DNA of 64,000 bases from the NCBI GenBank assembly GCA_020848995.1, contig JADLHA010000041.1, positions 33,418 through 97,417 of the forward strand. Reading direction: 5' to 3'. This DNA comes from Saprospiraceae bacterium. GTDB taxonomy: Bacteria > Bacteroidota > Bacteroidia > Chitinophagales > Saprospiraceae. The translations under genes and the position numbers were made by a program. This document shows, one piece after another, positions 31,247 to 53,207 of the stretch (position 1 is its first letter; each line of letters begins with the position of its first letter). The notes under the pieces are model-generated. The model saw only the letters and a list, made by a program, of their open reading frames with translations, had not been told where the DNA came from and did no database searches.

Positions 31247-34200
31247 TTATTGCGTAAGAATGATCTTCCGTACCGCGGTATAACGATGCGTTTCCATACG
31301 GTAATAATAGATGCCCGCTCCCCCGAGTTCTGCTGCGTCGATGCGCATAGTGTTGGGGCCCTCCGTAGCAATGCAATCAACCGACCTGAGCAAAGTCCCC
31401 TCCGTATTGAAGAAACTGATGTTGACCTTTTGATTGACAGGTGCCTGGAACCTGATCGTTGAATAGCTCCGGAAAGGGTTGGGTTCGTTCTGGAAGAGCA
31501 CTGCGCGCTGAATTTCAGCTTTGTTAGAACGCTCTTTTAGCTGAATGCTGAGCAAGCTCATATCCTCAAGGTAAGCCTCGGCTAAAATTCCATCGTGACG
31601 CATCATCAGAAATTCCGCAACAGACACCGGCTGGGTCGTGCGAAATACGAAATAGAACAATGCCTGCTCGGTCGGCTTAACACTGCCAATGGAATTCCAG
31701 CTCGCATTTAGCCTTCCTGCATGCTTCGGATCTAAACAAATATTGCGTTCGTCCATCTCAAGAATGCCACTCTGAACACCAACGAATTCTCCTACTGTGG
31801 TTTCGAAGCCAAAACTGCACTGGAACCCAGCGAGGTTTCCAACCCAGCTACCATAGACTGGTATGCGAACGAGTCCGCTTTCGGTGGCTACAGCTTCGTC
31901 AAGTTCAAAACTCAACGCCGCAGATGCCCGTCCTTGGAACCCACCAGCTACTTCGGTGGTCTTGGCGCTCAGGTTCACGTCTCCCGTCTTGATGGCCATG
32001 AAATCAACATCATGCATTTCACCGGAAAGCTGATCAATTTCATATTGATCCACCCAGGGCATATTCGCCCATGGATTGTCAATCTGATCAAACTTGGTGT
32101 CCTTGGTCAAGAACGACCACGAGAGAACTCCTTCCTTAAACCGGTCGTTGATACCAAGTATGAGTTTGCGAATGTCGCTAATGTCGGAGGCGGTGATGCT
32201 TCTGGAATTGTTAACGTCTGCTGCAATGAATTGATACGGCGACTGGAACGACTCAACACCCAATATGTGTCTCTGAATGAGAACGATGTCTGCGGTGGTT
32301 ATTCCGTTACTAACGTCATCGTCCTTGCGGGGACGAACGGAATAGCGCTCGCCTTCCGGCAGGTCCACAAAAGAATAACTACCCGACCGTTCAGAATGGA
32401 TCGTACCGATCACCTTACCCTCCTGGAATAAGTCGAGGTGCGCATTCTGCAATACAGCCTGATTGCTGGTTGAGACCAGACCACTGATCATACCGCCATT
32501 ACCAAACCGGTTTACGCATGTATTCCCAATATTGTCCTGGAGGTAAAGTTTGGTTTTACAGAATGACTGGTTGTTCCACTGGTCTGTAACATATATGGTA
32601 ACATCCAGGGTATCCGAGATGCCATTGTCGATGTCGGAACAGGTATACCTGCGCACGGAATCAGACACAAGACTGCTGAATGAAAACCTGAGGTCATTAT
32701 ATGCCGTGCAATTATCCTGACTTTTGCTGTCGAAGAAGCGCGCAGGTACGTCGATGTTTCCCGAGGAGGGCATAACCACTGCAACCAGCCCAACCTTGCA
32801 AAATGGAGTTGGGACTTTGCAATCGTTAACCCGAATCAGCTGAACACATCTGGCCGTATTACCACAAGAATCGGATACCGTCCATTCAATGCGGTGAGTT
32901 CCAACGGGGTATACGCCACTGGCATTATTGCCCTGTTGCGTGCTTCCAAAGCCGGCATTTCCAATATCCAACCGGTAAGTCCAGATCAGTTTATCGTCAT
33001 CTGTGCAATCGTCGTCTGCAGCTCCAATCAAATCCAGGTAAGCATTGCAGCTCACGTCATCTGCGCAGATGTCTACGGTATTACACGTTTCGTTGGCAAT
33101 GGTCGGAGCGGAAGTGTTTCTAACGTAAATAAGCTGATCTCTTGAAAAAATGCCAACCGGATCATTGCTGTTCACATCGTAAAGACACCAGTCGATCACC
33201 TTCCAGTGCCGGATGATTTTGATGCAATACCCCCCCACGTTGTAAAAGCGTTCGTCGCTATAGCCTGCGATCAGATTTGCGCAACCATGCCCGGGAAGCT
33301 TGGGCTTTCCTGCTATTTCCGGATGAGCGTCAGAAGCCTGGCAACCGTTGACGGTAATATCGGCAGGCCAGCCAATATCGCTCATGGTAATGGGATCCTC
33401 GTCGACTACAGTGATCGTCTGGTGGCAAATGGTAAACGCGCCACTAAGCGATGCGGCCTTCCACTCCCGACGAATCACGCCAACCCCACATTTCCATTGA
33501 ATGGTATCATCGCGATAAGTTATTCTCACGTTGGAGCAAGAGTTGACAGCCGTGGCCCCTCCCACGATTCCAAGATCGGAAAGATCTGTACCACAGTCCA
33601 CAGTAATATTGGAAGGACAATCTATATCTGGGGCAATTTTATCCTGGACCGTCACAGAAACCATGCAATCGTTAAAATTGCCAGCCTTATCCCATACCCG
33701 GAACACGACCATATGGGGGTTGTGTTCGAGATCCTCGCAACAGAATGTTACCCGTGGACCAAATTCAGTATTGCCCGGAATTCCGCACCAATCGGTCATC
33801 CTGCGCACAGCCATTGAATCAATCTCGCAGTTATCCAGCGAACCGTTGTCGACTGAGGTAGCCTGAAGAGTTGCAACTCCCTGCTCATTTAAACTGACAA
33901 CCGTATGCTCATCGCAGATAGCGACCGGATCGAGACTGTCCTCGATCAGCACCTCGGTCCTGCACCTCGTTACGTTGCCGCAGGCATCCGTTACGATGTA
34001 GCGAACCCAGGTCGTATCGCGTGGCAGCCCCGGAATTACAGCGTTTCCTCCTGAATACGTAACTCCGTCTGTCCGGTAATCACCTGCCTCAGGTTTACCG
34101 TCGGGGCCCGCCAATTTGTATTCTACCGTAAAGGTAGTTGACGAACAATCGTCTATGAACTGTGGCGGAGGCACGATAGCAGTACCGGCACACTGGTAAT

Positions 34201-35512
34201 AATCCATAGGGAATCGCATGTAATTTTGCGCACATGCCACCACAGGAGGTTTGTTGTCCATGACTTTAATGAACTGGACGCGTTCCTCCAATTCTCCCGT
34301 GCACCAATCGAAAACCTTCCAGGTGCGCAATAGCTTAAAGGAGTTCCCGCAGATGGGTATGCGGATATCGCGGTAAGTAACGGCAATGTGGTCGCAGTGC
34401 ACATTCAACGGGTAACCCGTTCCTTTCCATTTCACGCCACCTATTGAGTCGAGTTCGTCATAAGGCGAAGGGTTGCCATTGTCAAGGGCGTTCCACCCAG
34501 CCGGATACGGTCCGACCGGAGGTTCAATGCTGTCGCATTGCAATGGCGGTAGTTGAAAACCGTCGTAATTCTGAGGCCACATGACCCCGGCAATGCTCGC
34601 CTGAGTAATGTAGATCGAGTCCTTGCATGAAGTCTTATTGCCTTTGCAATCAACCGCAGTCCAGTTGCGCTCAATCTGAGCGTAATATGGTGCATTGCAA
34701 CCATTTTTTGTATAAATGTCGTAATAACACAGTTCCACATCGCAACACAGGTCAAAACCTCTTACAATGTAGCATTGGGATTTTGTCGGATGCTTAATCA
34801 CCGTATCTCCGGGTGGAAGGGGGAAGCCTATCGAATCGGGAGAATAGTCCTCGTCACACTCCACGATATAGGCCGTGTCGCTGCACTCCAGCAGGGGAAT
34901 GTATTTGTCTTCTATGAGTATTCGTCCCCAACAGGCAATCCCGGTGCACAAGTGTCTGACATGTACTTTGAGCACCTGCCCCAGGTGGGAATAGTTGACG
35001 ATGTTGCCAAGGATGGGCAGGTTGTTTGTGTTATACACCGTCACCTGGAAGGAACTTGCGGGGTAATAGTCTCCCTCCAGCACGACCCCTGGCGTGATCA
35101 GCGCCTGACAATTCCCGTCGAGACTGACGTGAACCAGGTCATCGCAAGCCATGGCATAATCTCCTTCCACAATGACTTGTTGAAACACCTGGGTAAACGG
35201 AAACACTGCTGTAATCAAACGAATGATGTATGTGCCAGGAACCGTACCCCAGTCCACGGTAAAACTATTAACAGGACCAACCGGCACAGGATTCAACGTA
35301 CCACCGCCGAGCACAGCCACCAAAAATGGACCTCCGCTAAAATTGTAAGTAACGGTCTGTCCGGGGCAAACGCTTGTGTCTCCGCTGACGTACTGTCCTT
35401 TCGCATCATAGGAAATACAGACCATCAAACCAGCGATCCAAATCGCCAGAGACTTCCGAATAAGTTGCAGGAAGCAGGGAAGGCTCTCCGAAAATAGCGC
35501 AACTTTCTTCAT
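31247..35512 (-). CDS. Giant secreted HYR-type protein with dockerin-like, cohesin-like and T9SS domains (paralogue A)
   Basis: This ~1421-aa surface protein has a signal peptide in the first 45 residues (SLAIWIAGLMVCISYDAKGQ). Next comes a ~90-residue module ending CWGRILIEDKYIPLLEC, then a long Cys-rich series of Ig/HYR-like units (for example APDIDCPSNITVDCG). The last third holds a carboxypeptidase-regulatory-like domain (GISGLVSTSNQAVLQNA), a dockerin-like pair (NGITTADIVLIQRHILG and AADVNNSRSITASDISDIRK), a cohesin-like domain (RIPVYGSWVGNLAGFQCSFGF) and a type A sorting tail (LFQNEPNPFRSYSTIRF). ATG 35512 is chosen because the upstream track start lies in an intercistronic hairpin. It is the last gene of three tandem paralogues and ends at a terminator. 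Ligand and assembly partner are unknown. Confidence 0.82.
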   Translation of the reverse strand: MKKVALFSESLPCFLQLIRKSLAIWIAGLMVCISYDAKGQYVSGDTSVCPGQTVTYNFSGGPFLVAVLGGGTLNPVPVGPVNSFTVDWGTVPGTYIIRLITAVFPFTQVFQQVIVEGDYAMACDDLVHVSLDGNCQALITPGVVLEGDYYPASSFQVTVYNTNNLPILGNIVNYSHLGQVLKVHVRHLCTGIACWGRILIEDKYIPLLECSDTAYIVECDEDYSPDSIGFPLPPGDTVIKHPTKSQCYIVRGFDLCCDVELCYYDIYTKNGCNAPYYAQIERNWTAVDCKGNKTSCKDSIYITQASIAGVMWPQNYDGFQLPPLQCDSIEPPVGPYPAGWNALDNGNPSPYDELDSIGGVKWKGTGYPLNVHCDHIAVTYRDIRIPICGNSFKLLRTWKVFDWCTGELEERVQFIKVMDNKPPVVACAQNYMRFPMDYYQCAGTAIVPPPQFIDDCSSTTFTVEYKLAGPDGKPEAGDYRTDGVTYSGGNAVIPGLPRDTTWVRYIVTDACGNVTRCRTEVLIEDSLDPVAICDEHTVVSLNEQGVATLQATSVDNGSLDNCEIDSMAVRRMTDWCGIPGNTEFGPRVTFCCEDLEHNPHMVVFRVWDKAGNFNDCMVSVTVQDKIAPDIDCPSNITVDCGTDLSDLGIVGGATAVNSCSNVRITYRDDTIQWKCGVGVIRREWKAASLSGAFTICHQTITVVDEDPITMSDIGWPADITVNGCQASDAHPEIAGKPKLPGHGCANLIAGYSDERFYNVGGYCIKIIRHWKVIDWCLYDVNSNDPVGIFSRDQLIYVRNTSAPTIANETCNTVDICADDVSCNAYLDLIGAADDDCTDDDKLIWTYRLDIGNAGFGSTQQGNNASGVYPVGTHRIEWTVSDSCGNTARCVQLIRVNDCKVPTPFCKVGLVAVVMPSSGNIDVPARFFDSKSQDNCTAYNDLRFSFSSLVSDSVRRYTCSDIDNGISDTLDVTIYVTDQWNNQSFCKTKLYLQDNIGNTCVNRFGNGGMISGLVSTSNQAVLQNAHLDLFQEGKVIGTIHSERSGSYSFVDLPEGERYSVRPRKDDDVSNGITTADIVLIQRHILGVESFQSPYQFIAADVNNSRSITASDISDIRKLILGINDRFKEGVLSWSFLTKDTKFDQIDNPWANMPWVDQYEIDQLSGEMHDVDFMAIKTGDVNLSAKTTEVAGGFQGRASAALSFELDEAVATESGLVRIPVYGSWVGNLAGFQCSFGFETTVGEFVGVQSGILEMDERNICLDPKHAGRLNASWNSIGSVKPTEQALFYFVFRTTQPVSVAEFLMMRHDGILAEAYLEDMSLLSIQLKERSNKAEIQRAVLFQNEPNPFRSYSTIRFQAPVNQKVNISFFNTEGTLLRSVDCIATEGPNTMRIDAAELGGAGIYYYRMETHRYTAVRKIILTQ

Positions 35513-35599
35513 AATTTGTTCATTTAGTTGTAAGAGAATTGACATGACGTTCAATTTTATACCAGCTTTTGAAATTGATTGCTCAGGCTTGGCTTTCAT

Positions 35600-35621
35600 C
35601 CGGGAACATTGCTGTTCCCGG
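35600..35621. other. Intercistronic hairpin between giant paralogues B and A
   Basis: CCGGGAACA-TTGC-TGTTCCCGG is a perfect 9-bp stem, 26 nt after the stop of paralogue B. No T-run follows on the reverse strand, so it is more likely an mRNA processing or stabilising structure or attenuator than a full terminator. Confidence 0.6.
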
Positions 35622-35647
35622 AATCAGCCTAATTACCCAAGAACCGT

Positions 35648-38600
35648 TTATTTTATGACAATCATTTTTCGCGTTGCATTGAAGCCATTGGCATCCAGAC
35701 GGTAGTAGAGTATTCCGGATTCGTCAATGTCCTCAGACTTAATCACGATGCTGTTCATGCCTGCCTTGGCTGCCGATGAGTAGGTCCTGATCACCGCACC
35801 AGCGATGTTGTACAGACTCAGGACAACCGGTCCATCGGTGGGAACGCGGAAGTACACTCTCGACTCACCAGCAAATGGATTGGGAACATTCTGGAAGAGG
35901 GCATAAGCACCGTCGCCAAATGCGTTGCCACCGTCGCTAAAACGGAATCCAACACGTGCATCACCATCCGGAGTATACGCCTCAGAGCTAAACCGGTCAG
36001 TCGCGATATTGATTCCACATTGCGACAGCAAAGCATTTTGTCTGGCTCTCAATTCAATGTAAAACAGGTCTGCGCCCGCTTCAGGCAAAAGCAGGCCGTC
36101 AGCATTCCAGCTCATCCGGACAATACCCGGTTCGATATGATAGTGTTCACCCTGAACGGAGATCAAACCGTTCTGCATTGAGACGAACTCGAGCATTTGA
36201 GGATTAAAAGACATGGAGAACTGCATTCCATAGAAGCCAGCCGCTTCGGAGGTCCTAAGTGGCATCCAGTAGGTCTGGCCCGCATTCAAAAGAGCATCCT
36301 GCGACTCCAAAGTAAGCTGGTTGCGATAGCGCGACGTTTGGGATGAGAATCCCGTGTTGGCCTCTCCGGTGACATCACCGGTTTTTACCGCTACAAAATC
36401 CCTGTCCATTAGCTCCCCATTGGTGTGAGCAATGTTCACATCCGTAGCGAAGTTCATGTAATTATCGAATGTCAGAGGAAACGCTGCATCGATAAAATTC
36501 CAGGACCGGTTGTTGTCAAATCCAGACTGTACGCCTAGAATGAGTTTCCGGAGTTCCGACACGTCCCTTGCCGTGATTGAACCTGAACGGTTTACATCTG
36601 CAGCAACCAGTTTATAAGGAGAGTCGAGCAATTCCAAACCAAGAATATGACGTTGAATCTTGACGATGTCTTTCGTCGTGATCCCCTGCGCTGGGTCAGC
36701 ATCGTAGCTCGCCGCCATCTGATAGCTGCTGTTCATGTCAAGCCCACTAAACAGGTATTCACCCTGGGCACCAGTCTTGATCTGGCGCTGGGCGCCCCGA
36801 ACATCGCTCAGGTTTACGACAACTTCCGGTGAGGGATTGCCGTTGTAACCCCTAATAAACCCATTCAAGGAAAAGAATCCAGGCACATCAGGGCATGCAT
36901 CCTGGTTGTCCTGCAAGACAATGTTGGTTAAACAAAAGTCGTTGTTGCCCGCGTTATCCGTGATGTATATCGTTACCGGGAGGGTGTCGCTTTTTCCGTT
37001 GGCAATGTCGGAACAGGTGAATTCCCTCGAAGTTTGCGAAATATCAGCTGAAAAAGAATATTTTAATTCTGCGGGATCTGTACAGTTGTCTTCGCCTCTG
37101 ATCACCAGGTCGTTTGCCCACACGGTAACGGATCCTGAATTCTGCATTAATACGGTAACTAAACCATCTTTACAATAAGGAGTTGGCCTTTTGCAATCCC
37201 TCACGCGAATGAGGTAGCTACAACGGGACTCATTACCACACTGGTCCTTTACCACCCAGGTAATCCGATGAGTACCTTCCTTCAGGCCATAGGTAAATTT
37301 GTTTCGCGATCCCTTTGCATCTTCAGAACCATCGTCATTGAGGTCCAGTGAATAACTCCAGCGCAATTCTGCTTGAGGAGTGCAACGGTCCGTTGCCGTC
37401 GCCTCAAAGGTATAGTTCACCTGGCATTGGGATTCAATGCAAAGGTCTTTGTCGTCACAAGAGCTTGAAAATTCAGGCCCTTCGGCATTGATGAGCTTGA
37501 TGACCTGAGTATGATACCATATTCCATGTCCTTTGACAGGATCATAGGTGCACCAGTCGATGACGGTCCACTTCCGCAAGATTTTGTAACAGACGCCTTC
37601 CACAAAATTGAAGACGAGGTCTTCGTAAGTAGCTACCGGAAGGTTGCAATGATCCCTGTTCAGATAAACCGGTTTGCCGGTAACCGCGGGATCCGCAGCA
37701 TCGACGCAACCGTCCAGAACGAGATCATCAGGCCACAGGATGTCCTCCCATACAAACGGATCGTCATCATATACCGTGATCACTTGTTGACAGGAATCCC
37801 GCAGTCCGCCATTGTCTATGGCTATAAATTCCCGGATGATCTGACCGAGATTGCATGTATTCAAATAATTGTAAATACGGGTCTCGATCCGGACCTGACA
37901 GTTATCCGTTGCGCTGGCTTCGCCAAAAACGCTCAGGTCTGTTAAGTCAGTTTCGCAATCAACCCTCACATCATCGGGACAATTAATGATTGGAGGAAGC
38001 TTGTCCTGTACGATGGCTTGCACCATGCATTCACTTGAATTGTTGTTTTGGTCAATGACCCGAAGAACGACGGTGATGCCATCTGCATCGGAAACGTCCT
38101 GGCAGCAGAACTCTGCGTTGTCCTTAAAGGTAGTGCTGCCGCATGGGCCAGGGTCCATTCTCCGCACCTTAAAACTGACAGATCCACAATTATCGTGGCT
38201 GTGATCGTCAAAAACCGACGCAGGCACTGTAGCTTTGCCGGTAGACCCCAGCGATATGACCGTCTTTTCATGGCACACAGCTACGGGAGGCGTGCGATCA
38301 ACCACCTCTATATCAAACTGACAGCGGGTTGAGTTGCCACATCCATCCGTGATCGTGTAATATATCCAGTTACACCCCAGAGGCATATTGAATACCTGGT
38401 ACCTGCCATCGGGCAGTTTAATGATGTTATGATCGGTGCCCAGACCCGCAACGGGCGTACAATTTTTGGGATCTATAGCCGGCAAGTGTTTGACGTCGTA
38501 GGTCCATCCAGAGCAGTTTTCAGTGACGTACGGCGTATAATCGTTGACAATGGTAGATGGGGTAAGATCCTCCGGAACGGGCAGGATCAGGGATCCGGAA

Positions 38601-40069: not shown

Positions 40070-40194
40070 AATGGATAATTTATGAGTGGTAAAACGATTC
40101 ATGTTCGCGACAATTTTTGAGATCTGAAAAACGGTTCTTATTGAGATTCGATTCATTTTTTTTAATTTTTTGCCCAAGAACAAAGCGGGGGGGT

Positions 40195-40218
40195 CACCTG
40201 TCAGTTAAGAGACGGGTG
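40195..40218. other. Intercistronic hairpin between giant paralogues C and B
   Basis: CACCTGTC-AGTTAAGA-GACGGGTG can form an 8-bp stem with one G-U pair directly after the paralogue C stop. On the reverse strand it is followed by seven C rather than T residues. Confidence 0.45.
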
Positions 40219-40222
40219 TACT

Positions 40223-43200
40223 TTATTCCATGAGCAGCATTTTGCGCATTGCTTTATTTTCATTCATTTCGAGTTGGTAATAGAGAATGCCTGTTCCCTT
40301 CAGGTCCTCGCGGGTGAGCGCAATGTGATTCAAACCCGCCAGGCCAGCAACCCGCTGACTGTAAATTCTTTTTCCATCCAGGTCAAAGACCGACAAAACT
40401 GCATCACCCGCCTCCGGAAGGTTGAAGAAAATAGAGGTTCCCTGATCAAAGGGATTGGGCTGATTCTGGTAAAGGAAGAATCCATTGACCAGTGTGTTGC
40501 CAGTCCTGAAGCGGAAATCGATTTCCCTGGATTCCAGATCCGCATCGTACATTTCTGAAGTAAAACCATTAGCCAGCACCAGTGCATTGCTGAGCCTTGC
40601 CGAACCGAGCGTTTCAAACTCCAGGTAAAACAGGGGCTTACCAGGAATAAGCTGCAAGTTTTGGTCGCAGCTCAGGCGAACCACCTCGGCCTGGTAGTCG
40701 ATTGCATAATTCGCATCGTTGATCTCGATCAACCCTCCCGTGACCTCCTTAAGCCTCAGCAATTTTGAGTTGAAGCTGAAGGCAAGCTGCATGCCGGAGA
40801 AAGCAGTCTCCTGTCCCGCATAAACGGGAATTCTGATTAGTTCTCCAGTCTTAACTTCCAGGTCATTCACATGCAGTTCAAAACTTGCATGGTGGCGCTG
40901 CGAAGAGCCCTGCAGGTTGTTGGTTCGTGCGTTTCCGTTGACATCGCCAAGTTTAACGGCAATGAAGTCCTGCTCAACCAATTCACCACCCATTTTGGCA
41001 ATCTGGCCCTGTTCTTCAAAAGGCCAAGGGCTCAACGGATTGGCGAAATTCTGGGTGGAAGAAATAAATCTCCAGGACTTTCCCGCAGGAAGCTGCTGAG
41101 TCAGTCCAAGGATCATCCGGCGCAAGTCAGAAACGTCCTTTGCTGTAATGGTCTGTGAGTTGTTGACATCTGCTGCGATGACCTTATAAGGCGACTCGAG
41201 CACCTGCAGACCAAGAATATGGCGTTGGATGAGCACAATATCCAGGGTCGAAATGCCATTCATGGGGTCGTCCTCTTTCTGAGCACTGACCGTATAGGCT
41301 TCGTTTAACGGAAGTCCAATGAAAGCATAATTGCCGTCTGCACCGGTAATGTTGACTTTAGGCATTCCAGGCATCTTTGCATCCAGTTGTACCTGTGCAT
41401 TCTCAACTTTAGAATAGGATTCGTTATAGACAGATCCCTTTAAATTTCCGGTTGTTCCACCACCGAGGTTGTCGGGACAGGCATTTCCGATACCATCCTG
41501 AATGATCACCTTGGTATCGCAAAAGTCACTGTTATTGTTGTCATCAAACACATAGATGCTAACATTAAAAGTGTCCGCGACGCCATTCTGAATTTGTGGG
41601 CAAGTGTAGGTCCGGCTCGTATTCGATGGATTGCTCGAAAAGGCAAAACGAAGTTTATCAGAAGCCGTACAGTTATCCTTACTGCCGGCATTGAAGTCTT
41701 TAGCCCAGATGGTTACCTGTCCGGTACTCGGCATAATGACCGTGATGAGGCCGGTATTGCAGAAGGGAGTAGGCTTCTTGCGATCGACAATCGTAAATAG
41801 ATAAGAGCAGGTCGAAGTGTTTCCACACTGGTCGCCTACGGTCCAGCGGATGCGATGGGTTCCCACCGGGTAGGTTCCACTTGCGTTGTTTCCGGTCCCG
41901 TAGAAGTCGACAGATCCGTTATCGCGAAGGTCAATTTCCCAGCTATACAACAATTGCGCAGGAAGGCAATCGTCCGTAGCCTCCAAAGTCAGGGTCGCGA
42001 AACCATTGCAATCATCGCTTATCCCGTCAAATGACAAGTTAGAGCAGGGCGTCAAAATAGTTGGCTTTACTGAATTATTGATTTTGATTACCTGTGTCCG
42101 CGTCCATCGCCCGGCACCCGTCGTACTATTAAAGATGCACCAGTCGACCACCGTCCAAGTTCGCAACACTTTGAAGCAAACATTCTCGACTACGTTAAAC
42201 ACCTTGTCTTCATACGTTGCTACAATCCCGGAACAGGTGGTATTTGAAGGCCAGCTGGGCTTTCCGGTCACATCAGGACTTACGCTTGGGTGGCATCCAT
42301 TGGTGATCACGGTGTCGCGCGGCCAAACAATAGAGGTCAAACCATTAAATAATGTAGAGTCCATAACAGTAATGGTTTGCTTACAAACCTTATATGGATT
42401 AAAATCATCAAAAAACGTATCCCTTCGCGTTATCGTTCCCTTTCCGCAATTATCAAAAACATAACTAACTGCACTTAGATGGTGCAGATTGCAGTCCTCA
42501 ATAACGAGTTGATCGTATCCCCACAGATGGGGTTGTGCAAGGGTATTGTTTGTCGGATCATAGATCAGGATGGGATCTATGTCCTCTGTCCGAGTTTCGT
42601 AACTTCCAAATACCGACAAATCGGAATAATCAAACTCGCACGAAATGGTAATGTTCGGCAAACACTGAACGACAGGTGGCTTTTTATCCTGAATGGTCAC
42701 CTCGACCATGCACTCATTGGTATTTCCTGCCTTATCGGTGACCTGCAGTACGACCGTCAACGGGTTATTCGGAATATCTGAACAACAGAATTCAACGTAA
42801 TCTCCAAAGAGGGCATCGTCCTTAACCGGATCCGGGCAATCCCCCGGAACCATTCTCCTGACTTTGAAGCCACCCATTTCGCAGTTATCATGAGAGCCGT
42901 CGTCAAAAGTGATGGCATATACTTTAGCGGTACCATCATCCGTAAGAGTAACTACGGTCTCCAGGTCGCAGACGGCAATGGGGCGTGTGCGCTCGTGGAC
43001 AAACACTTCAGAAGCACAGGTATCGACATTCCCACATTGATCTTTACCAATAAAGAGTATCCAGGAAATGCCAACGGGCAGGTGCAGTACCTTATATGTA
43101 GAATCCGTAAGCTTGATGATCCCCGACTGGGTGGCATCGATGGCCGATGGGGGAAGGCTGGTATCTGCCGCTCGCTTTACCCAAACTTCAAAGGTCACGG

Positions 43201-44542: not shown

Positions 44543-44954
44543 AGTCAATGGTTTATAAAATTCGGTTTTGCTCATTGGTCAAAAGGGATCTCAGGAGCGC
44601 CCATGCGCCCATGATTCATGTGCTATACAGTAGGGGGGGTGGGAAGTTGGACCTGAGTGCCGATAGCAATCACCCAAGCCAACACCACAGGTGTGCAAGG
44701 AATATTCCAAAAAAGGCTTATAACTGACTAAGTATGCTTGCCAGTTGACATGTGTTCATATTAGTAATATTTACCATTTATATACATTTATTAAGCATTT
44801 ATATACGCTTTAAAAAAAGGATGTATCCGCAAAAAAAAAATACATACCCACATCATTCACCGCCGTGTGAGAGGTCACTGCATAGCCTGGCCTGCCAAAG
44901 ACAAAGCCCTGCGCTTACCGTTGGCCACATCACTGAAACGAGACCGTTCCAAGC

Positions 44955-45187
44955 TTAAGGGCACTTCTACCCCCCCCTGCTGCGCCAGCCAGCCCGCACA
45001 GGCTCACGCGCTCAATGAATTTAGCTTCACAATCCTTCGTTGCAGCTCAGTCAGTTATTGCTCCACATAGCTTCCTTCGCTGCGCCTCGGCTTGTTTTGC
45101 TAAATTCATTCTGTCATCAACAGGGAGAGGAGGGAGGCAGCCCTTTTCATTCTGGCATCAACAGGGAGTTTTTAGAAGTGCCCCTAA
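44955..45187. repeat. TIR-bounded repeat element, copy 2 (long form)
   Basis: A 233-bp element inverted relative to copy 1. The ends TTAAGGGCACTTCTA and TAGAAGTGCCCCTAA match as inverted repeats at 14 of 15 positions. Next to the left end is a C8 run (44970-44977). An inner perfect 12-bp inverted repeat, AATGAATTTAGC (45014-45025) and GCTAAATTCATT (45099-45110), flanks a 73-bp segment missing from copy 1. About 1.6 copies of the 41-bp unit follow. Confidence 0.85.
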
Positions 45188-45253
45188 GAGCAGTGCTCAA
45201 CTATCTGCAAAGAGAATTTGATCCTAGGGGAAAACCGCTACACCGTAAAAGGA

Positions 45254-45278
45254 AAAAAGGGCCATAGTGGCCCCTTTA
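45254..45278 (-). terminator. Rho-independent terminator of the DUF3667-like/lipoprotein operon
   Basis: Reverse strand: AAAGGGGCCA-CTA-TGGCCCTTTT with a one-base bulge, followed by TTCCTTTTAC. It lies about 70 nt after the lipoprotein gene stop. Confidence 0.75.
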
Positions 45279-45349
45279 AAAGATATCATGAAGAATTCCT
45301 AAACTTAACCCGCCGAGAAAGTCCAACCAGGTACCAAAGACTGCAACGC

Positions 45350-45880
45350 TTAGTAAAAAACAAAGCCAACCTTTTCAAGAGATCTTCTGATCTTCTCCTC
45401 AGACAACTGCTTCCTCGCCCGTTTCACGGAACTGATCTGCATGCTATCGAAACGCTGAACTGCCAATGAGAGGTTAAGGACTTTGAGTTGCTGAGTATTC
45501 AAATCATCCATGGTACGACGCATAATTTCAGTATTCGTCTTACATGTTTGAGACAGGTCATCCACCCACTTCGTCAGCCGACCAACTTCCGCATTAAGAG
45601 TCAGAATCTCTTCAGCACTGGTGCTCAATTTTTGCTCCTGATCGTGAACCGCGTGCTCAAGCTCCTTCACCCGCACAGACTGCCTAAAAACAATACTGGA
45701 TAAGCTATCGCGATCGCCATACAAACCAACAATTAAATTCTGGCTGGAGGTAAGTCCTTGTTGCGCGCGTTGATATTCTGCCTGCAATCCTGCATGATCT
45801 TTTTCAAGCGCTTTGAATTTTTTTGAGGATACGCAAGAGGCCAGCAACCCTACAAGCGCGATCAAAAATATGTTTTTCAT
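45350..45880 (-). CDS. Small coiled-coil lipoprotein of unknown function
   Basis: This 176-aa product begins MKNIFLIALVGLLASCVSSKKF, with a lipobox at LLASC (Cys16), so it should be lipidated and held in a membrane of the envelope. Residues about 20-150 are heptad-rich and predicted to form coiled coil (ALEKDHAGLQAEYQRAQQGL, VKELEHAVHDQEQKL). The N-terminal part resembles the leader of OmpA-like lipoproteins of Bacteroidota that start CVSxKKF, but no peptidoglycan-binding OmpA domain follows. It lies 12 nt after the DUF3667-like gene, in the same operon, and ends at a good terminator. The function is not recognised. Confidence 0.72.
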   Translation of the reverse strand: MKNIFLIALVGLLASCVSSKKFKALEKDHAGLQAEYQRAQQGLTSSQNLIVGLYGDRDSLSSIVFRQSVRVKELEHAVHDQEQKLSTSAEEILTLNAEVGRLTKWVDDLSQTCKTNTEIMRRTMDDLNTQQLKVLNLSLAVQRFDSMQISSVKRARKQLSEEKIRRSLEKVGFVFY

Positions 45881-45892
45881 AATCAGTAAAAA

Positions 45893-46636
45893 CTATGTCG
45901 ATTGGTTAATCAAAATAATTTCATGAGTAAGAAGTATTGCATACTTCATGCCCAAATAAATCGCCAAAATAGTAATCAGGGACTTCCAAGTTGAGGCAAA
46001 AAGATCATTCTTCAACAACTTGTAGTTTAACAGGAATATAATGGTTAACTGCGCAATAAATATGAGGATCTTCTGGACGGGATAAAATGTTTGAAACCCC
46101 AAAGTAATCAAATGCATTGCAATTACCAGACACATCATTTGACCCAATAAAAATGTAATTGCAGTCACTATTTCTGCCATGTTAAAACTCATTGACCGGT
46201 TAAGCGCCTTGGTACAGGCGGTAAATATGGGAATGATAAGCAAAAAGTAAAGTTTTCCATACTCATTAATGATCTGATCAAGCAGTCTCTCAGAATCATC
46301 CAAATAAATATCTGTACCTAAAGACGTATAATTATAATGTGAAAGAAAAAAACTGATCCCCATATTGATAAACAAGTACTTGAACGGGGTATAATACTTG
46401 TCGCGATCTCCATGTATATATTCAAAAAGAAATTCAATGGGTCTTTGCCATAAGGCGTTAAAGGTTGGGAAGTACTTTCTGAAATTGATGACTTCCGAGA
46501 TTATTTTATCCAACAAAAAGGCAAGGGAGAGCCTGGATTTATAATGTGCCTGGCCACAATTACTGCAAAAGAGGCCTTTATCCATATAGCCGCATCTTTT
46601 GCACTGAAATTCGGTTTCAGAATTACTCCCTCCCAT
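45893..46636 (-). CDS. DUF3667-like zinc-ribbon membrane protein
   Basis: This 247-aa protein has an N-terminal zinc ribbon, CKRCGYMDKGLFCSNCGQ (two CxxC pairs, residues about 12-29), then a region with FPTFNALWQRPIEFLFEYIHGDRDKYYTPFKYLF, and four to five membrane segments (for example LYFLLIIPIFTAC, FLLGQMMCLVIAMHL, ILIFIAQLTIIFLL). This layout is that of the DUF3667 family found widely in Bacteroidota; its function is unknown. It is the first gene of a two-gene operon with the coiled-coil lipoprotein. No consensus promoter was found upstream. Confidence 0.75.
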   Translation of the reverse strand: MGGSNSETEFQCKRCGYMDKGLFCSNCGQAHYKSRLSLAFLLDKIISEVINFRKYFPTFNALWQRPIEFLFEYIHGDRDKYYTPFKYLFINMGISFFLSHYNYTSLGTDIYLDDSERLLDQIINEYGKLYFLLIIPIFTACTKALNRSMSFNMAEIVTAITFLLGQMMCLVIAMHLITLGFQTFYPVQKILIFIAQLTIIFLLNYKLLKNDLFASTWKSLITILAIYLGMKYAILLTHEIILINQST

Positions 46637-46973
46637 AATATCCCCGACAGGCTTACCTCAAAGTAATGGCTTAAAATAAAATCCCTTCATGATACTCAGT
46701 ACTTGAATTTTACACTTCGCAGAGTTCAGGCCCTACAATCAATGCAAACTTCAATGCAAAAAAACAAGTAACGTAAAATTTGTCAGTTATAATCATCCGT
46801 CATGCAAGCCGAAGGTATAAAGGCCCAAAACTCATAAATTTTTTTAATCAACCTCAGTCATTTAAAGCCGTTATAGGCTGTATTAAGATAAAAAACAACT
46901 CCCTAATTGATTGAACGCAATCAATTAGGGAGTAATCATCAAATTAAGGCTTTGCTTCTAAGCCGGGTACGCA
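46637..46973. other. 337-bp intergenic region
   Basis: Contains only the terminator of the 2077-aa gene (46898-46933) at its right side and an A/T-rich stretch upstream of the DUF3667-like gene, presumably its promoter. Near matches to the -7 box occur (reverse TTACTTTG at about 46656) but no exact one. Confidence 0.5.
46898..46933 (-). terminator. Strong Rho-independent terminator of the 2077-aa giant gene
   Basis: ACTCCCTAATTGATTG-AACG-CAATCAATTAGGGAGT is a perfect 16-bp stem with a 4-nt loop. On the reverse strand it is followed by TGTTTTTTATC, as expected for termination 41 nt after the stop codon. Confidence 0.92.
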
Positions 46974-49900
46974 TTAATCCAACAGCAACATTCTCTTTGT
47001 TGCGCTATGTCCGTTTGCATCGAGCTGGTAATACAACACGCTGCCGTATCCGAGCTCAGAACGCTTGACGATCACTTCGTTGGCGCCCTTAGCTCCCATC
47101 AAATCATACAAACGCACCAGTTTCCCGGTCAAATCGTAAATGCTAAGTGTTGCGGGGCTGGCTTCGGGCAAGTTGAACCGGATGACCGCCTCCTTTGCAA
47201 ACGGGTTAGGCGAATTCTGGAACAGTTCGAACACGCTGGTCTCAGAAACGCTGCCGTCCCGTCGAACCGCCAATCCAATGTCTCTTGGCTGCAGGCCAGC
47301 ATCGTAGGCCTCGGCCCGGGTGATCTCGGAATTGATGGTAACCAATTTAGAAACCGTTCCGTCGGCAAGTGCCCTGAATTTCAGGATAAACAACACTTGA
47401 TCTGCAGGGCAGGTTTTGCCCTCTTTCTCGTTCCAACTGGTTGAAAGAAGACCATCGCCAACGCGCTGCGTACCAAAATTGCTGACATCCAGCGACAATG
47501 CACCTGGTTCAAAACCCTCATACGCCAATGCGTCCTGGTCAAAACGCAGTGTAAACTGATAGGCAGCAATGCTTTTGAAATTAGACGAAAGGACAGCCAT
47601 GTTATAGACTTCCCCGGCTACCAGCACGCCCTCTTCAATTTCAAGAGAAAGCTTTTCTCCGGAACGGCTGGAGCTGCCCACCGCATTCCTTCCCCGAACG
47701 GTATTGTTTACATCGCCAATCTTGATCGCCACAAAGTCTTCGACGACCTCCTGAGCTGCAGTCATGGGTACGACCGCTTGCCTTGGAGCATTCCAGGGTT
47801 CCTTTGGATTATCGAATATAAATTTCGATGGAACGAACGTCCAGCTCTCGGATTTAGAAAACTTATCTACGACGCCAAGGATTAACTTGCGCAGTTCGGA
47901 TATGTCAGAGGTAGACACTGTTTTGCTGGCATTCACGTCAGCAGCAAGCAGTTTATACGGACTATTCAGTTCTTCCAAACCAAGCAGATGGCGCTGAATT
48001 TTCACGATATCTGCTGTCGTCACTCCGTTCAGTGGATCGTCGTTTCGACCCGGCTTGATGACGTACTCTCTGGAAACGCCCCACAGGAGCTGGCCAAAGA
48101 AGTATTTGCCGTTATTGGAAGTGATCATTTGCTTCTTCATCACTGCAGATTCAAACAACTGCACATCCGCATCTTGTGTTTCCTCGTTGCTCTGGGTGCG
48201 GAGTTCTCCGCTGATCTTACCGTACGAGCCAACATCCGGACATACGTTATTGGGATCCTGGACGACCAGAGTCGTCTGGCAACAATCCTCATTTCCTTCC
48301 TCGTCTTCAACGCAAATGACGACCGGAATGATGAGTTCGTCGTTGACGCGATTGTTTACGAAATCCTCGCAGCAGATGGTAAGGCTGTCGCTATCGTAGT
48401 CGCCGAAATAAATGTGCAAGTCCTCGGGTGCAGTACAGTTGTCGTAGCTGCCTGCATCAAAGTCTTTTGCCCAAAGGGTAACGCAACCACTGGCAGGCAT
48501 TACGGTGGTGATCAGGCCCACGTGGCAATAAGGTGTAGGCGCCTTGCAGTCTTTGATCTCAAAGAGCTGGCAGTTGATGCCTATGTTGCCGCAACCGTCC
48601 TCTACATGCCAGCAGATCTTGTGCACACCCACCGGATAGTTACCGCTCGCATCGAAAGGATTCCCTGGGAAATCAGCCTGCGGATTGTCGTTGAATTTTG
48701 GCGCGCGCCCAGCAGCAAATTCCTTTTGGGTTAGCGGGCCTACGATGAAATCGAATCCCGGGTATTTGCCTTTTCCGTCGTTGAATGCGTCGATTTTATA
48801 CTCGTAGAACAACCAATCGAGCGGACTGCAATCGTCAGTTGCCGTTGCTGTCAGGGTCATGTGGCCGAAGCATACTCCATTGGTTTTGGTAGCGGGTTCA
48901 CAGTCGCCGATGCTTACGCTGACCACCGGTTTGATTTTATCTGAAACCTTGATGATCTGCAGATATTCCCAACGACCTCTGTTCAGATCGAGGTTCGGGT
49001 CGTACTGACACCAATCGATAACCGTCCAGTGGCGAAGGACTTTGAAGCACGCATCGGGTTCAATGGTAAACACTTCGTCGAAATACTCAATGCTGATCAG
49101 GGCGCAAAGGTCGTCTGCATTGTTTTCAATCACAGGGCGGCCCAGGGCCGGATTGTCGGGGCTGATATCGGCCCCGCAGCCTGCAAGGGTCGTTGCCTGT
49201 CCTGTGCAATTGCCCGGCCAGCTGATGTCATCTGTTCCATCGCAGTCGTCTTCCCGGTTGATGTAAAACGGATCGCAGTCGACCACCCAGATCGTTTGGG
49301 TTTGTGTCACGCTGATGTTATTCGGGCCACGGGCTACAACTGTGCGCGTCAACTGGCCCTGGCCGCATTCGCGGTTGTCGTTGACAGAGATGCTGAAGTT
49401 GGTACCGCAGGCGCCAAGTACCGTACCGTCGAAGCCCCAGGTGAGTTCATACTTGCGGTCGGCATGTGCCGTATCAAAGAGCACCTGATAGTACTCGCAT
49501 GCGCGATTCCATGCCGGTGGGTTTGCGGGGGGTGCACCCGGAACGAAACCAGGGTATCCGGTGATGTCGTTGCGCACGCAATAGTTATGACATACGAGGT
49601 CGCGGGTGACCACTTTCTTTCTCGCTGACAGGTCGTTAACCACCCTACCGAAGGTCGGGTCGTTGGGGTCTGTCAGTTTTTCGACGTCGAACCAGAACCA
49701 GCAGCTCACTACGATGTTTGGCGGTGCCACCACCGTAGGTACGCTCTTGTCCTGAACCTCCACTTCGATCATGCAATCGCTGAACCGGTTGAACAGGTTG
49801 CCGCCCGGGTTCATCCGGGTTGGAGCAATCGGCCCAACGCCCGGCTCGCGGTCAAACACCCGCAAAACCACCATGATCGTATTGCCCACGTCGGTGCAGC

Positions 49901-52900
49901 AGAATTTCACGTGGTCGTCAAAGTAAATTTGATTTCCTTCTAAAATTGCGTTGTCGTCACCATTAATTCCGGCGCAATTGGTTCCGTTATCCGGTTGAGC
50001 TGTATTGCTTCCATTGTTCGTACCCCGCAGGTGTTCCATGCGAATGACCTTAAAGAAGACGTGATGTGAGCAGTTGTCAAAACTGCCCTGGTCGAGGTCA
50101 TTTGCAAAAATCTTGGCAAAGTTCTCGCCCGGCGATTGGTTTCCGTTGATCGAAACGACGGTTCTCTGGTCACATACCGCTACCGGCGGAACGTTGTCCT
50201 GTACGTTTACGGCAACGCGTTTGCGGGTGATGCTACCGCAACAATCTTCTGCGATGATGTACACGCTCCATTCACCGGGTTCCATATCTACGATGATGAA
50301 TCCAGCCTCGTCGTTGCCCAAAATGGTTCCCGTTTCGGATTCGAGCGAATAGTGAAGTTCATTCGAGCAATTGTCGATCAGCCATGGCTTTGGAACTTCC
50401 CATCTCCCGGTACAAGTCCAAACATCCATGTTGACAACAATGGTATCGGGATACAAGACCTCGGGACCTTCCCGGTCAATGACTTTAATGACCTGGTTAT
50501 GGCCGCCGATGTCGCTCGAACACCAGTCGAGCACCGTCCATTGGCGAAGAACTTTATAGCATCCAATGGGCCCGGCATCGCAGCCTGGGCGAGCAATGTC
50601 AATGATAATATCCTGAAAAGTCACGCCCAAATTCGAGCAGCCGCTGCCGGTGGGATAGCCCGTACCGTGCCACTGAACAATTTCATCCGGGCCCCAGCAG
50701 ACCGGATTGTTGGGTCTCCAGTTCGGATGTGCGGGCCAATAGATGGGCCATGGGCTCGGATGACCAATGTAGAGCCCTGTATCCAGACAATTCCAGCCAA
50801 GCGTCCTGGGAAGACGCTCTCCCGCCAAATCGCCGGTTGGGCTGGGCAGGAAGCCACCCGTGGCAAACCAGTGGGCAGAGTCGAGCAGGTAGCCATCCAC
50901 GCAATATGGGTAAGGCAGGTAATGCGGAGAATAATCTTTGGTGTTGATCTTTCCGTCACAAGCCAATGCGGGGCTTTCGATGTCGTCGAAGTTAAGTGGA
51001 ACGTCAATAGATGAAAGGGTTGCAAGGCTTACGGTAATGGTCTGGACGCATTGATCCTTATTGCCGTAGGCATCTTCGGCCGTCCAGGTGCGCACAATGA
51101 GCTCTTCATATCCAGCTGCACAGCCCCCCTGGGTCACGTTGTCGCGGTAGGTCAGGGAATAGCCTCCGCAATTTTCGTCAACACCCGGTATGCCCATATA
51201 AGCTGGTGAGGTCGGAGTGGTGCCACAAACGACGCAGGTGTCTCGTGCACAAGTTAAAATTGGAGGCAATTTATCCTCTACGATGGCAGACCCCCAGCAG
51301 GAATTGCCGGTTTCCGTATCGATAACCGTGACCATGATCTTGCGACCGATGTCCTGGACGCTTACCTGTGCACCTGGCACATTGGGCTGGCGGTCAATGA
51401 CCACGTTGGTGATCCAATCCCGCAACTCGATGGTGTAATCATCAAAACAATGGTAGGGTCCCCCGGTCAGGATCTCATCTGCAGAAATCGTTGCAAAACA
51501 GTTCTCGTCGAGGCTCACCTGGATCAGGTCGTGGCATGCCAGGTGATCAACCGGGTTTTGGAATTCGTTTACGCAGACCTCAAACTCGCAGGTTGCTGTA
51601 TTGCCGGAGGCATCGGTTGCTTCATAACAAAGGGTAACGCAGCCAATCGGGAAATAGCATCCCGGACCGTAGGGTTGGCCACAGGTTTGAATAACAGGTA
51701 CCATATTGTCAGAAGACGGGAAGCTATAGCGGATATTTCCAACGAATTGCTGGTTGCCAGATGTTGCAAGACCTCCTCCCTGACCGAAGAGCCCAGTCCC
51801 GTATACGCACGACATGGGTGGATTCTTCAAAATGGCCAAATTGGCATCGCCCCAGGGGGTGCCGGCTTGAGTACAGCCTCCACTGCTCCAATACATTCCT
51901 CCCTGGCCCAGAATGCCTGCAATGTATATACCTCGGATTTCTCCGGGCTGAATGACCGGGCAACCCCCTCGGATGGTATCATAAGTTACACCTGTACAGG
52001 TAGAATTTTGAACGACGTTGACCGTCCGGAGGTCTATGTAAACACGCGCAGGAGGAGGGAAGGTGCCTCCAGTACCGGGCACCCAAACGCCACTGTTGCA
52101 GCGGGTCCAGGAAGCCCTGTTGAAGCGCACTGGAACGTGACTGCCGGGCGCTGTAGTGTACCATACCGTAGCTGTGTCCATATTTCTCCAATGAACATCG
52201 ATGCCGTGGAAAATGATAGCCTGAGTACCAATATTTTGTATGTCCCACATGTTTCCACCGTAGAAACCTGGATTCCAGACAATATTGGGGGAAACCTGGC
52301 AACCTGGGGCAATGCGCTCCGCACCAGTTCGGATGAGCCCCGAAGGGCAGTCGTCCATTGCCATAAATGGGGGAGCATCCCAGCTTGCTTCGCATTCACC
52401 TGGACCCAGGTTTATGATGACCGCTTTGGGGCAGCCGATGATCACGGGTGGATTATCGTCTCCAACGGTGATTTCCTGAGTGGCCGTTATTTCCTGGCAA
52501 TTGTATTTATTGTAGCTGGTCCATACGATGTGGTGCGTTCCATAGGGCAGCACTACTGAACCCCCGCACAAGCCCGTAAGATCGTTGACCGCCCGAAGGT
52601 TGGACTGGGGGATGGTCAGTTCGACGTCGACCCAGCTGTCTCCACAAAATGGGTGGGCGGTTCCATTGGTTATCAAGGAATTCGGAAGGGTTTTCCATCT
52701 GAGTCCCCCTTGTGCCTGGAGGTTGAAGTCGCAAAACGACATGGTGCAGGTGCTGGTGACCGTTTCACAGTCAATGCCCCCAACGCGGCAGATGATGTTG
52801 CCGTCTTCGTCAACCAGGACAATGTCTTCAAACGGTCTGGAACTCAAGTCGCCTACAGCCGTCATTTTAATGGTGACATCTGCACAACCCGCCTCGGGAA

Positions 52901-53207
52901 CGATGCCAAAGTCAATGGCCATGCTGTCCAGGTGAAATTCGCCCGAGCCGGGAGGAAACTCGATGAACTGGAAGTCAAAGTGCCGGTTGATGATTTGAGG
53001 TGCTGCATTGGGGTCCGGATAACAGCCACAGTCCGGAGCGATCAACTCAGGACAATCCAGCTGAATCGGCGCCAGGCATGCCCCCAGATTGCTGCTTTGA
53101 GGTGGGAACGGAGCAAAGCTACAGGAATAGCCCTGCCCGTTAACATTTGTAGCGCCACAAATGAGCAGCACCCAGAAGAGGAAAGACAAGTTTTTGCGAT
53201 ACTTCAT
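46974..53207 (-). CDS. Giant secreted HYR-type protein, 2077 aa, with dockerin-like, cohesin-like and T9SS domains (paralogue D)
   Basis: The largest member of the island starts MKYRKNLSFLFWVLLICGATNVNGQ (signal peptide). It has an N-terminal region not seen in A-C (residues about 25-560), containing a clear HYR-type domain (NPPVIIGCPKAVIINLGPGECEASW) and a beta domain rich in Gly/Asn/Trp. Then come the shared module ending CWGSAIVEDKLPPILTC, the Cys-rich Ig/HYR-like series, GKISGELRTQSNEETQDA (carboxypeptidase-regulatory-like), the dockerin-like pair (NGVTTADIVKIQRHLLG; AADVNASKTVSTSDISELRK), a cohesin-like domain (YNMAVLSSNFKSIAAYQFTLRF) and the tail (LFQNSPNPFAKEAVIRFNL). It has its own strong terminator and a possible ~250-nt leader, so it is transcribed apart from A-C. 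Confidence 0.85.
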   Translation of the reverse strand: MKYRKNLSFLFWVLLICGATNVNGQGYSCSFAPFPPQSSNLGACLAPIQLDCPELIAPDCGCYPDPNAAPQIINRHFDFQFIEFPPGSGEFHLDSMAIDFGIVPEAGCADVTIKMTAVGDLSSRPFEDIVLVDEDGNIICRVGGIDCETVTSTCTMSFCDFNLQAQGGLRWKTLPNSLITNGTAHPFCGDSWVDVELTIPQSNLRAVNDLTGLCGGSVVLPYGTHHIVWTSYNKYNCQEITATQEITVGDDNPPVIIGCPKAVIINLGPGECEASWDAPPFMAMDDCPSGLIRTGAERIAPGCQVSPNIVWNPGFYGGNMWDIQNIGTQAIIFHGIDVHWRNMDTATVWYTTAPGSHVPVRFNRASWTRCNSGVWVPGTGGTFPPPARVYIDLRTVNVVQNSTCTGVTYDTIRGGCPVIQPGEIRGIYIAGILGQGGMYWSSGGCTQAGTPWGDANLAILKNPPMSCVYGTGLFGQGGGLATSGNQQFVGNIRYSFPSSDNMVPVIQTCGQPYGPGCYFPIGCVTLCYEATDASGNTATCEFEVCVNEFQNPVDHLACHDLIQVSLDENCFATISADEILTGGPYHCFDDYTIELRDWITNVVIDRQPNVPGAQVSVQDIGRKIMVTVIDTETGNSCWGSAIVEDKLPPILTCARDTCVVCGTTPTSPAYMGIPGVDENCGGYSLTYRDNVTQGGCAAGYEELIVRTWTAEDAYGNKDQCVQTITVSLATLSSIDVPLNFDDIESPALACDGKINTKDYSPHYLPYPYCVDGYLLDSAHWFATGGFLPSPTGDLAGERLPRTLGWNCLDTGLYIGHPSPWPIYWPAHPNWRPNNPVCWGPDEIVQWHGTGYPTGSGCSNLGVTFQDIIIDIARPGCDAGPIGCYKVLRQWTVLDWCSSDIGGHNQVIKVIDREGPEVLYPDTIVVNMDVWTCTGRWEVPKPWLIDNCSNELHYSLESETGTILGNDEAGFIIVDMEPGEWSVYIIAEDCCGSITRKRVAVNVQDNVPPVAVCDQRTVVSINGNQSPGENFAKIFANDLDQGSFDNCSHHVFFKVIRMEHLRGTNNGSNTAQPDNGTNCAGINGDDNAILEGNQIYFDDHVKFCCTDVGNTIMVVLRVFDREPGVGPIAPTRMNPGGNLFNRFSDCMIEVEVQDKSVPTVVAPPNIVVSCWFWFDVEKLTDPNDPTFGRVVNDLSARKKVVTRDLVCHNYCVRNDITGYPGFVPGAPPANPPAWNRACEYYQVLFDTAHADRKYELTWGFDGTVLGACGTNFSISVNDNRECGQGQLTRTVVARGPNNISVTQTQTIWVVDCDPFYINREDDCDGTDDISWPGNCTGQATTLAGCGADISPDNPALGRPVIENNADDLCALISIEYFDEVFTIEPDACFKVLRHWTVIDWCQYDPNLDLNRGRWEYLQIIKVSDKIKPVVSVSIGDCEPATKTNGVCFGHMTLTATATDDCSPLDWLFYEYKIDAFNDGKGKYPGFDFIVGPLTQKEFAAGRAPKFNDNPQADFPGNPFDASGNYPVGVHKICWHVEDGCGNIGINCQLFEIKDCKAPTPYCHVGLITTVMPASGCVTLWAKDFDAGSYDNCTAPEDLHIYFGDYDSDSLTICCEDFVNNRVNDELIIPVVICVEDEEGNEDCCQTTLVVQDPNNVCPDVGSYGKISGELRTQSNEETQDADVQLFESAVMKKQMITSNNGKYFFGQLLWGVSREYVIKPGRNDDPLNGVTTADIVKIQRHLLGLEELNSPYKLLAADVNASKTVSTSDISELRKLILGVVDKFSKSESWTFVPSKFIFDNPKEPWNAPRQAVVPMTAAQEVVEDFVAIKIGDVNNTVRGRNAVGSSSRSGEKLSLEIEEGVLVAGEVYNMAVLSSNFKSIAAYQFTLRFDQDALAYEGFEPGALSLDVSNFGTQRVGDGLLSTSWNEKEGKTCPADQVLFILKFRALADGTVSKLVTINSEITRAEAYDAGLQPRDIGLAVRRDGSVSETSVFELFQNSPNPFAKEAVIRFNLPEASPATLSIYDLTGKLVRLYDLMGAKGANEVIVKRSELGYGSVLYYQLDANGHSATKRMLLLD

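Follow-up and report, generated by a model that had tools for sequence, protein, structure and literature searches.

Giant dockerin- and cohesin-bearing proteins of a Saprospiraceae bacterium appear to be clients of a separate, non-cellulolytic cohesin scaffold

The 64,000-nucleotide stretch analyzed here (the window; G000:C41:33418-97417) belongs to contig JADLHA010000041.1 of a Saprospiraceae bacterium whose 3.14 Mb genome is assembled in 52 contigs. It encodes four giant proteins, P0001 to P0004, which share one C-terminal cassette consisting of a carboxypeptidase-regulatory-like domain, a dockerin, a linker with a GDV motif, a cohesin and a type A sorting tail of the type IX secretion system (T9SS). 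P0001, P0002 and P0003 are full-length paralogues with 36–38% identity, and P0004 is 30–33% identical to them over most of its length; invariant cysteines are abundant in the bodies of these proteins. Pfam searches on the giants return HYR, CarboxypepD_reg, Dockerin_1, Cohesin and Por_Secre_tail, several of them under the curated cut-offs. A preliminary description of this DNA had reported an island of four giants ending in one common domain series and had quoted the dockerin-type peptide AADVNNSRSITASDISDIRK. Open reading frame (ORF) calls and hidden Markov models (HMMs) confirm the series and its order in each of the four proteins, and the peptide is present in P0001. The four giants lie on the minus strand at 31247-53207, but the same span also contains two small genes, and the cassette is found genome-wide and family-wide rather than being special to this island. 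We suggest below that the giants take part in a cohesin-dockerin system that has a scaffold protein of its own.

In whole-protein scans of the giants Dockerin_1 (PF00404) scores 16–20.6 bits against a curated cut-off of 22.9, while in a genome scan three of the four giants reach 25–27.5 bits and P0004 reaches 22.1. With Cohesin (PF00963, cut-off 24.1) P0004 alone passes, at 24.3 bits; P0002 scores 21.5, P0003 scores 14.0 and none is detected in P0001. The tail model TIGR04183 is above its cut-off in three of the four and below it in P0004. When module HMMs are instead built from relatives less than 45% identical to the window proteins, they match more strongly than plain Pfam and find the modules in one order in each of the four giants, with E-values of 5e-6 to 7e-13 for the carboxypeptidase-regulatory-like domain, 1e-27 to 6e-30 for the dockerin, 5e-22 to 1e-36 for the cohesin and 1e-21 to 5e-28 for the T9SS tail. 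Additionally, when all PDB sequences are searched with a profile built from 105 cassettes, dockerin-bearing chains match at positions ~69–127 and cohesins within 187–320, the best matched chain from a dockerin-cohesin complex being 4uyp_B (E 3.9e-7). An AlphaFold2 model of the P0003 cassette (416 residues) has a mean predicted local distance difference test (pLDDT) score of 93.8 and a predicted template modelling (pTM) score of 0.82. Structural alignment of model residues 196–323 gives cohesins or cohesin-like modules in all of the top 19 rows (Z 11.3–13.1), and the tail of the model matches the PorU sorting domain. As judged from this model, the giants' cohesin has a genuine cohesin fold, a nine-strand jelly-roll, rather than the unrelated beta fold that the preliminary description had allowed for; P0003 is the sole cassette modelled, and the fold of P0001, P0002 and P0004 is assigned by homology. 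The PDB profile for the dockerin and the model fold for the cohesin bear out the two domain identities, and chance or misread domains are ruled out by the PDB profile matches, the structural alignment and the relative-built HMMs.

The dockerin retains the two F-hand calcium loops of type I dockerins. Among 87 non-redundant cassettes the second calcium loop is canonical, with D102 and D113 in 87/87 and N or D at position 104 in 85/87. In the first loop D78 is found in 87/87 and position 69 is mostly D, N or E, with Leu often at ligand position 5. A100, A101 and L122 are likewise invariant, and H85 and R118 are near-invariant. The linker is also conserved in the cassette, with SW..F and GDV motifs.

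According to a whole-cassette profile, the source genome contains ~19 complete or almost complete copies, the longest open frame having 5339 codons, with partial copies besides, which rules out the cassette as a unique locus of this window. Within the family it occurs in 134 of 150 sampled Saprospiraceae genomes; Portibacter marinus also has it (L081). In a sample of the phylum it occurs in 9 of 247 genomes, the richest five of which lie within Saprospiraceae while the other four have one match each. At G085:C15 and G062:C1, the open frames that bear a dockerin reach 9227 and 13315 codons.

The preliminary description had proposed that a dockerin and a cohesin on each secreted chain would permit assembly without a separate scaffoldin. 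This is contradicted for the present organism because a three-cohesin scaffold protein exists in its genome. Encoded on contig C28 (locus L124), this protein carries three cohesins, one placed by Pfam (51.6 bits) and two by iterated HMM, together with five SprB repeats, CHU_C and a TIGR04131 type B tail above cut-off. A PorP/SprF gene follows it and a cassette giant precedes it (Table 1). We surveyed 41 loci from 41 genomes, comprising L124 and 40 loci around scaffold matches elsewhere, in which the scaffolds have 2–10 cohesins each. PorP/SprF lies directly downstream, within 600 bp, in 35 of the 37 scaffolds with a complete type B tail. A dockerin giant is present at 26 of the 41 loci, on the same strand every time, and is no more than 1.5 kb away at 23; the binomial tail for 23/41, assuming a 2–10% chance of a dockerin neighbor, is 1e-28 to 3e-13, values that are indicative only. 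The pair of scaffold and PorP/SprF thus adjoins dockerin giants family-wide, and the same gene order is seen in loci that were found via the cassette and not the scaffold (L076, L080, L086, L098, L100, L103, L106, L122 and L123). The scaffolds of four relatives, as scanned with Pfam, have between three and ten cohesins besides SprB repeats and CHU_C; the one from L201 combines ten Cohesin domains (283 bits) with 11 SprB repeats and CHU_C on a single chain. The scaffold ORFs of the clusters bear no dockerin. No carbohydrate-binding module was detected in the five scaffolds scanned with Pfam (L124, L103, L100, L106 and L201), nor was any catalytic family detected on the scaffolds scanned, including those with three (L124) and ten (L201) cohesins.

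In ten loci the scaffold gene is immediately preceded by one for a small protein of ~265 residues, which has one scaffold-type cohesin and a type A tail and might offer dockerin proteins a single anchoring site.

Scaffold and cassette also occur together across genomes. A single-sequence scaffold query, which at the threshold used has one match in its home genome and leaves cassette cohesins unmatched, finds matches in 118 of 134 cassette genomes and in 0 of 16 cassette-less ones (Fisher 4e-13, again indicative only). A scaffold profile also matches the other 16/16 cassette genomes, as well as 3/16 of the cassette-less ones; its matches at weak E-values fall partly on cassette cohesins, and because of this cross-matching the profile-based counts are softer than the single-sequence counts. 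Dockerin_1 matches number 5–26 per genome (mean 14.1) in 16 scaffold genomes and 0–6 (mean 1.7) in the 16 cassette-less genomes.

Which cohesin the dockerin would engage was approached through conservation. The named loci came from dockerin peptide patterns, and conservation was recomputed on sets chosen by scaffold or by whole-cassette profile. In these sets, not picked by dockerin sequence, mean pairwise identity is 54–55% for the dockerin, 22% for the adjoining cohesin and 30–35% for the tail. The dockerin is the most conserved module of the cassette, and since this held in the recomputed sets we reject the notion that it is an artefact of the scan. Such conservation fits one shared partner. 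The cohesins of giants and of scaffolds fall into separate clades (3 label changes versus 39 when shuffled). Scaffold cohesins have a conserved cysteine pair at model positions 214 and 285 (~71% each), probably a disulfide linking strands 2 and 7, which the giants' own cohesins lack; in the latter, G227, Q229, W269, E307 and Y309 are conserved and lie on strands 3, 6 and 8. Divergence of the dockerin correlates with that of its own cohesin at rho 0.19 in the large set; smaller sets give 0.27 and 0.48, and higher values for other pairs. No domain pair stands out consistently in this comparison, which neither marks the dockerin and the cohesin of its own chain as partners nor argues that they are not.

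We scanned 18 cassette or dockerin proteins of the source genome, a part of its dockerin ORFs, and found mostly HYR, SdrD_B, DUF11, PKD, CARDB or cadherin-like domains. From this domain content we infer an adhesive or coat role for the giants. No glycoside hydrolase domain is present in these 18 proteins; given this result and the scanned scaffolds free of carbohydrate-binding modules, a cellulosome proper is rejected. One source-genome protein (L133:1918-3630) has a thioredoxin-like AhpC-TSA domain fused to a dockerin and a T9SS tail and is apparently an enzymatic client.

Beyond the giants, the window contains a 963-residue ORF (53654-56545) whose transcription runs away from P0004; apart from a weak T9SS type A tail, Pfam recognizes nothing in it. 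A 481-residue ORF (58105-59550) has no Pfam or NCBIfam match and runs into the GMP synthase ORF (59450-60979), whose end it overlaps.

Table 1. Positions of the giants, their cassette modules, small genes between them, and genes of the scaffold loci (window coordinates unless a contig or locus is given; aa, amino acids)
Feature	Position	Strand	Details
Giant P0001	31247..35599	(-)	1450 aa; Cys-rich HYR/Ig-like body and C-terminal cassette
P0001 carboxypeptidase-regulatory-like domain	32330..32497	(-)	aa 1035-1090; HMM E 5e-6; Pfam PF13620 weak
P0001 dockerin	32144..32326	(-)	aa 1092-1152; HMM E 6e-30; PF00404 20.6 bits
P0001 cohesin	31532..31921	(-)	aa 1227-1356; HMM E 5e-22; no Pfam Cohesin match
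P0001 T9SS type A sorting tail	31256..31501	(-)	aa 1367-1448; HMM; TIGR04183 29.6 bits, above cut-off
Giant P0002	35648..40183	(-)	1511 aa from TTG; true start may lie further in
P0002 carboxypeptidase-regulatory-like domain	36710..36868	(-)	HMM
P0002 dockerin	36527..36703	(-)	aa 1161-1219; HMM E 1e-27
P0002 cohesin	35957..36325	(-)	aa 1287-1409; HMM E 9e-24; PF00963 21.5 bits
P0002 T9SS type A tail	35651..35905	(-)	HMM; TIGR04183 28.9 bits
Giant P0003	40223..44575	(-)	1450 aa
P0003 carboxypeptidase-regulatory-like domain	41282..41449	(-)	HMM; part of AlphaFold2 model
P0003 dockerin	41099..41278	(-)	aa 1100-1159; HMM E 7e-30; profile matches to solved dockerins
P0003 cohesin	40502..40885	(-)	aa 1231-1358; HMM E 2e-23; AlphaFold2 model versus 1anu Z 13.1, root-mean-square deviation 2.3 Å
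P0003 T9SS type A tail	40229..40480	(-)	HMM; PorU C-terminal domain fold match Z 10.7; TIGR04183 27 bits
Coiled-coil gene	45350-45880		between P0003 and P0004
DUF3667 gene	45893-46636		between P0003 and P0004
Giant P0004	46974..53207	(-)	2077 aa
P0004 carboxypeptidase-regulatory-like domain	48051..48221	(-)	HMM
P0004 dockerin	47868..48047	(-)	aa 1721-1780; HMM E 8e-30; PF00404 16 bits
P0004 cohesin	47262..47660	(-)	aa 1850-1982; HMM E 1e-36; PF00963 24.3 bits, above cut-off
P0004 T9SS type A tail	46980..47231	(-)	HMM; TIGR04183 19.3 bits, below cut-off 23
Cassette giant, contig C28	L124:1749-5756	same as scaffold	220 bp upstream of scaffold
Scaffold, contig C28	L124:5982-9239		1085 aa; three cohesins, SprB repeats, CHU_C / TIGR04131 type B tail
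PorP/SprF gene, contig C28	L124:9259-10314		20 bp after scaffold; 176 bits
~265-aa single-cohesin protein	L170, L172, L175, L177, L183, L186, L196, L201, L202, L203		

Based on these data we propose, with a probability of roughly 60%, that the giants are clients of a family-wide, non-cellulolytic, T9SS-exported cohesin-dockerin system and dock on a scaffold anchored by PorP/SprF. Each giant, with its long Cys-rich HYR/Ig-like body, would be exported by the T9SS via its type A tail, and its single, highly conserved dockerin would plug into the cohesins of the scaffold, three in this organism and up to ten in relatives. The scaffold, with its SprB repeats, would be exported with its type B tail and be retained at the outer membrane by PorP/SprF, the product of the gene directly downstream. 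In this way interchangeable adhesin-like giants would share scaffolds and form a coat or bundle on the cell surface, in which their divergent cohesin between dockerin and tail may serve as a second, optional linking layer or as a spacer. We prefer this model because of the gene linkage, the co-occurrence, the multiplicity of scaffold cohesins and the lack of a dockerin on the scaffold; these features, like the domains, the cohesin fold and the dockerin conservation, are observed, and the contact between dockerin and scaffold and the location at the cell surface are inferred.

Several observations weigh against docking on the scaffold. Fifteen of the 41 scaffold loci have no dockerin gene in the stretch examined, and genome G071 (C464, C165) has a multi-cohesin protein of 2458 codons with no Dockerin_1 match and no cassette. 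The genomes compared are related, so the p-values given above overstate independence. A type A tail alone would anchor the giants to anionic lipopolysaccharide (A-LPS), and docking would therefore be unnecessary for their retention. Lastly, the giants' cohesins conserve residues on the strands of the classical dockerin-binding face as much as the scaffold cohesins do and may therefore bind dockerins too; this comparison gives no indication of which cohesin class is the binding partner.

This last point bears on two alternatives. One is an assembly on two levels, in which giants dock on the PorP/SprF-held scaffold and their own cohesins receive further dockerin giants, giving a branched, exchangeable adhesin coat built via the T9SS; we consider this possible but tentative. 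The other is the head-to-tail arrangement of the preliminary description, in which each giant's dockerin would engage the cohesin of the following giant to form fibres or mats. The presence of both modules on all four chains and on nearly all family cassettes speaks for it, as does a true cohesin fold in which strands 3, 6 and 8 hold conserved positions. Against this stand the separate multi-cohesin scaffold in the same genome, linked to cassette genes, and the 22% identity of the giants' cohesins compared with 55% for the dockerins, as well as cohesin divergence that follows the dockerin no better than other domains do. Moreover, at least one dockerin protein of the source genome, L131, has no cohesin between dockerin and tail as read from its sequence. 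Head-to-tail assembly thus seems unlikely to us.

More doubtful still is an intramolecular clamp, with the dockerin packed against the cohesin or the carboxypeptidase-regulatory-like domain of its own chain to produce a rigid stalk ahead of the sorting tail, without inter-chain assembly. The fixed module order, the conserved SW..F/GDV linker and the pTM obtained for the whole modelled cassette are consistent with such a clamp, but it leaves unexplained both the conservation of the dockerin alone and the association with a multi-cohesin scaffold, seen in co-occurrence and in gene linkage. Many T9SS cargo proteins have assorted beta-sandwich domains ahead of the tail and loop 1 of the dockerin is often hydrophobic at ligand position 5, yet the notion that the modules are vestigial, stable Ca-dependent and beta-sandwich spacers without mutual recognition is very improbable in view of the invariant and near-invariant dockerin residues and of dockerin numbers that expand only where scaffolds exist.

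The proposed system resembles the clostridial cellulosome in having a multi-cohesin, non-catalytic scaffold anchored at the cell surface, many dockerin clients, and the same cohesin fold and dockerin family. Unlike in the cellulosome, the scanned clients are HYR/SdrD/DUF11 adhesin-like giants rather than glycoside hydrolases, they also carry a cohesin, export is by the T9SS, the scanned scaffolds have no carbohydrate-binding module, and PorP/SprF takes the place of anchoring by SLH or sortase. We know of no SprB that carries cohesins or receives dockerin proteins as the scaffold here would. The scaffold is otherwise similar to the SprB/SprF pair of Flavobacterium johnsoniae in its SprB repeats, type B C-terminal domain and PorP-like outer-membrane partner; SprF binds SprB, and PorP-like proteins have been proposed to hold type B tails (PMC9143113). 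A cellulosome-like complex in Ca. Stygibacter (Cloacimonadota) combines a large tandem-cohesin scaffoldin bearing a T9SS-type C-terminal domain with dockerin-bearing secreted proteins, but its clients are GH18, GH57, S8 and C25 enzymes and its scaffoldin carries CBM2/CBM3 (PMC8542988), whereas the Saprospiraceae system has no such enzymes among the proteins scanned and features SprB repeats and an adjacent PorP/SprF gene. Anaerobic methanotrophic (ANME) archaea also have non-cellulosomal dockerin/cohesin sets, with dockerin proteins of other functions and up to five cohesins per scaffoldin-like protein; those scaffoldins bear a dockerin themselves, the surface and export system is unrelated, and the client domains are different (PMC9012536). 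A recent survey of cellulosome bacteria demanded dockerin-fused glycoside hydrolases (PMC11557425) and would therefore have missed the Saprospiraceae system. In the open-access literature searched, which leaves subscription papers aside, we found no paper linking Saprospiraceae to a cohesin-dockerin scaffold.

Cohesin-dockerin pairs rank among the strongest protein contacts known and, to our knowledge, have been studied almost solely for cellulose degradation. Saprospiraceae appear to hang giant adhesin-like proteins on a separate surface scaffold by means of the plug-and-socket parts of cellulose-digesting machines. If true, most members of the family would be using the cohesin-dockerin principle for structure and not for digestion. 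It would also supply new cohesin-dockerin pairs, with scaffolds of 3–10 cohesins tied to anchors of the gliding-adhesin type, and would offer an explanation, open to test, for the large number of T9SS giants encoded by Saprospiraceae.

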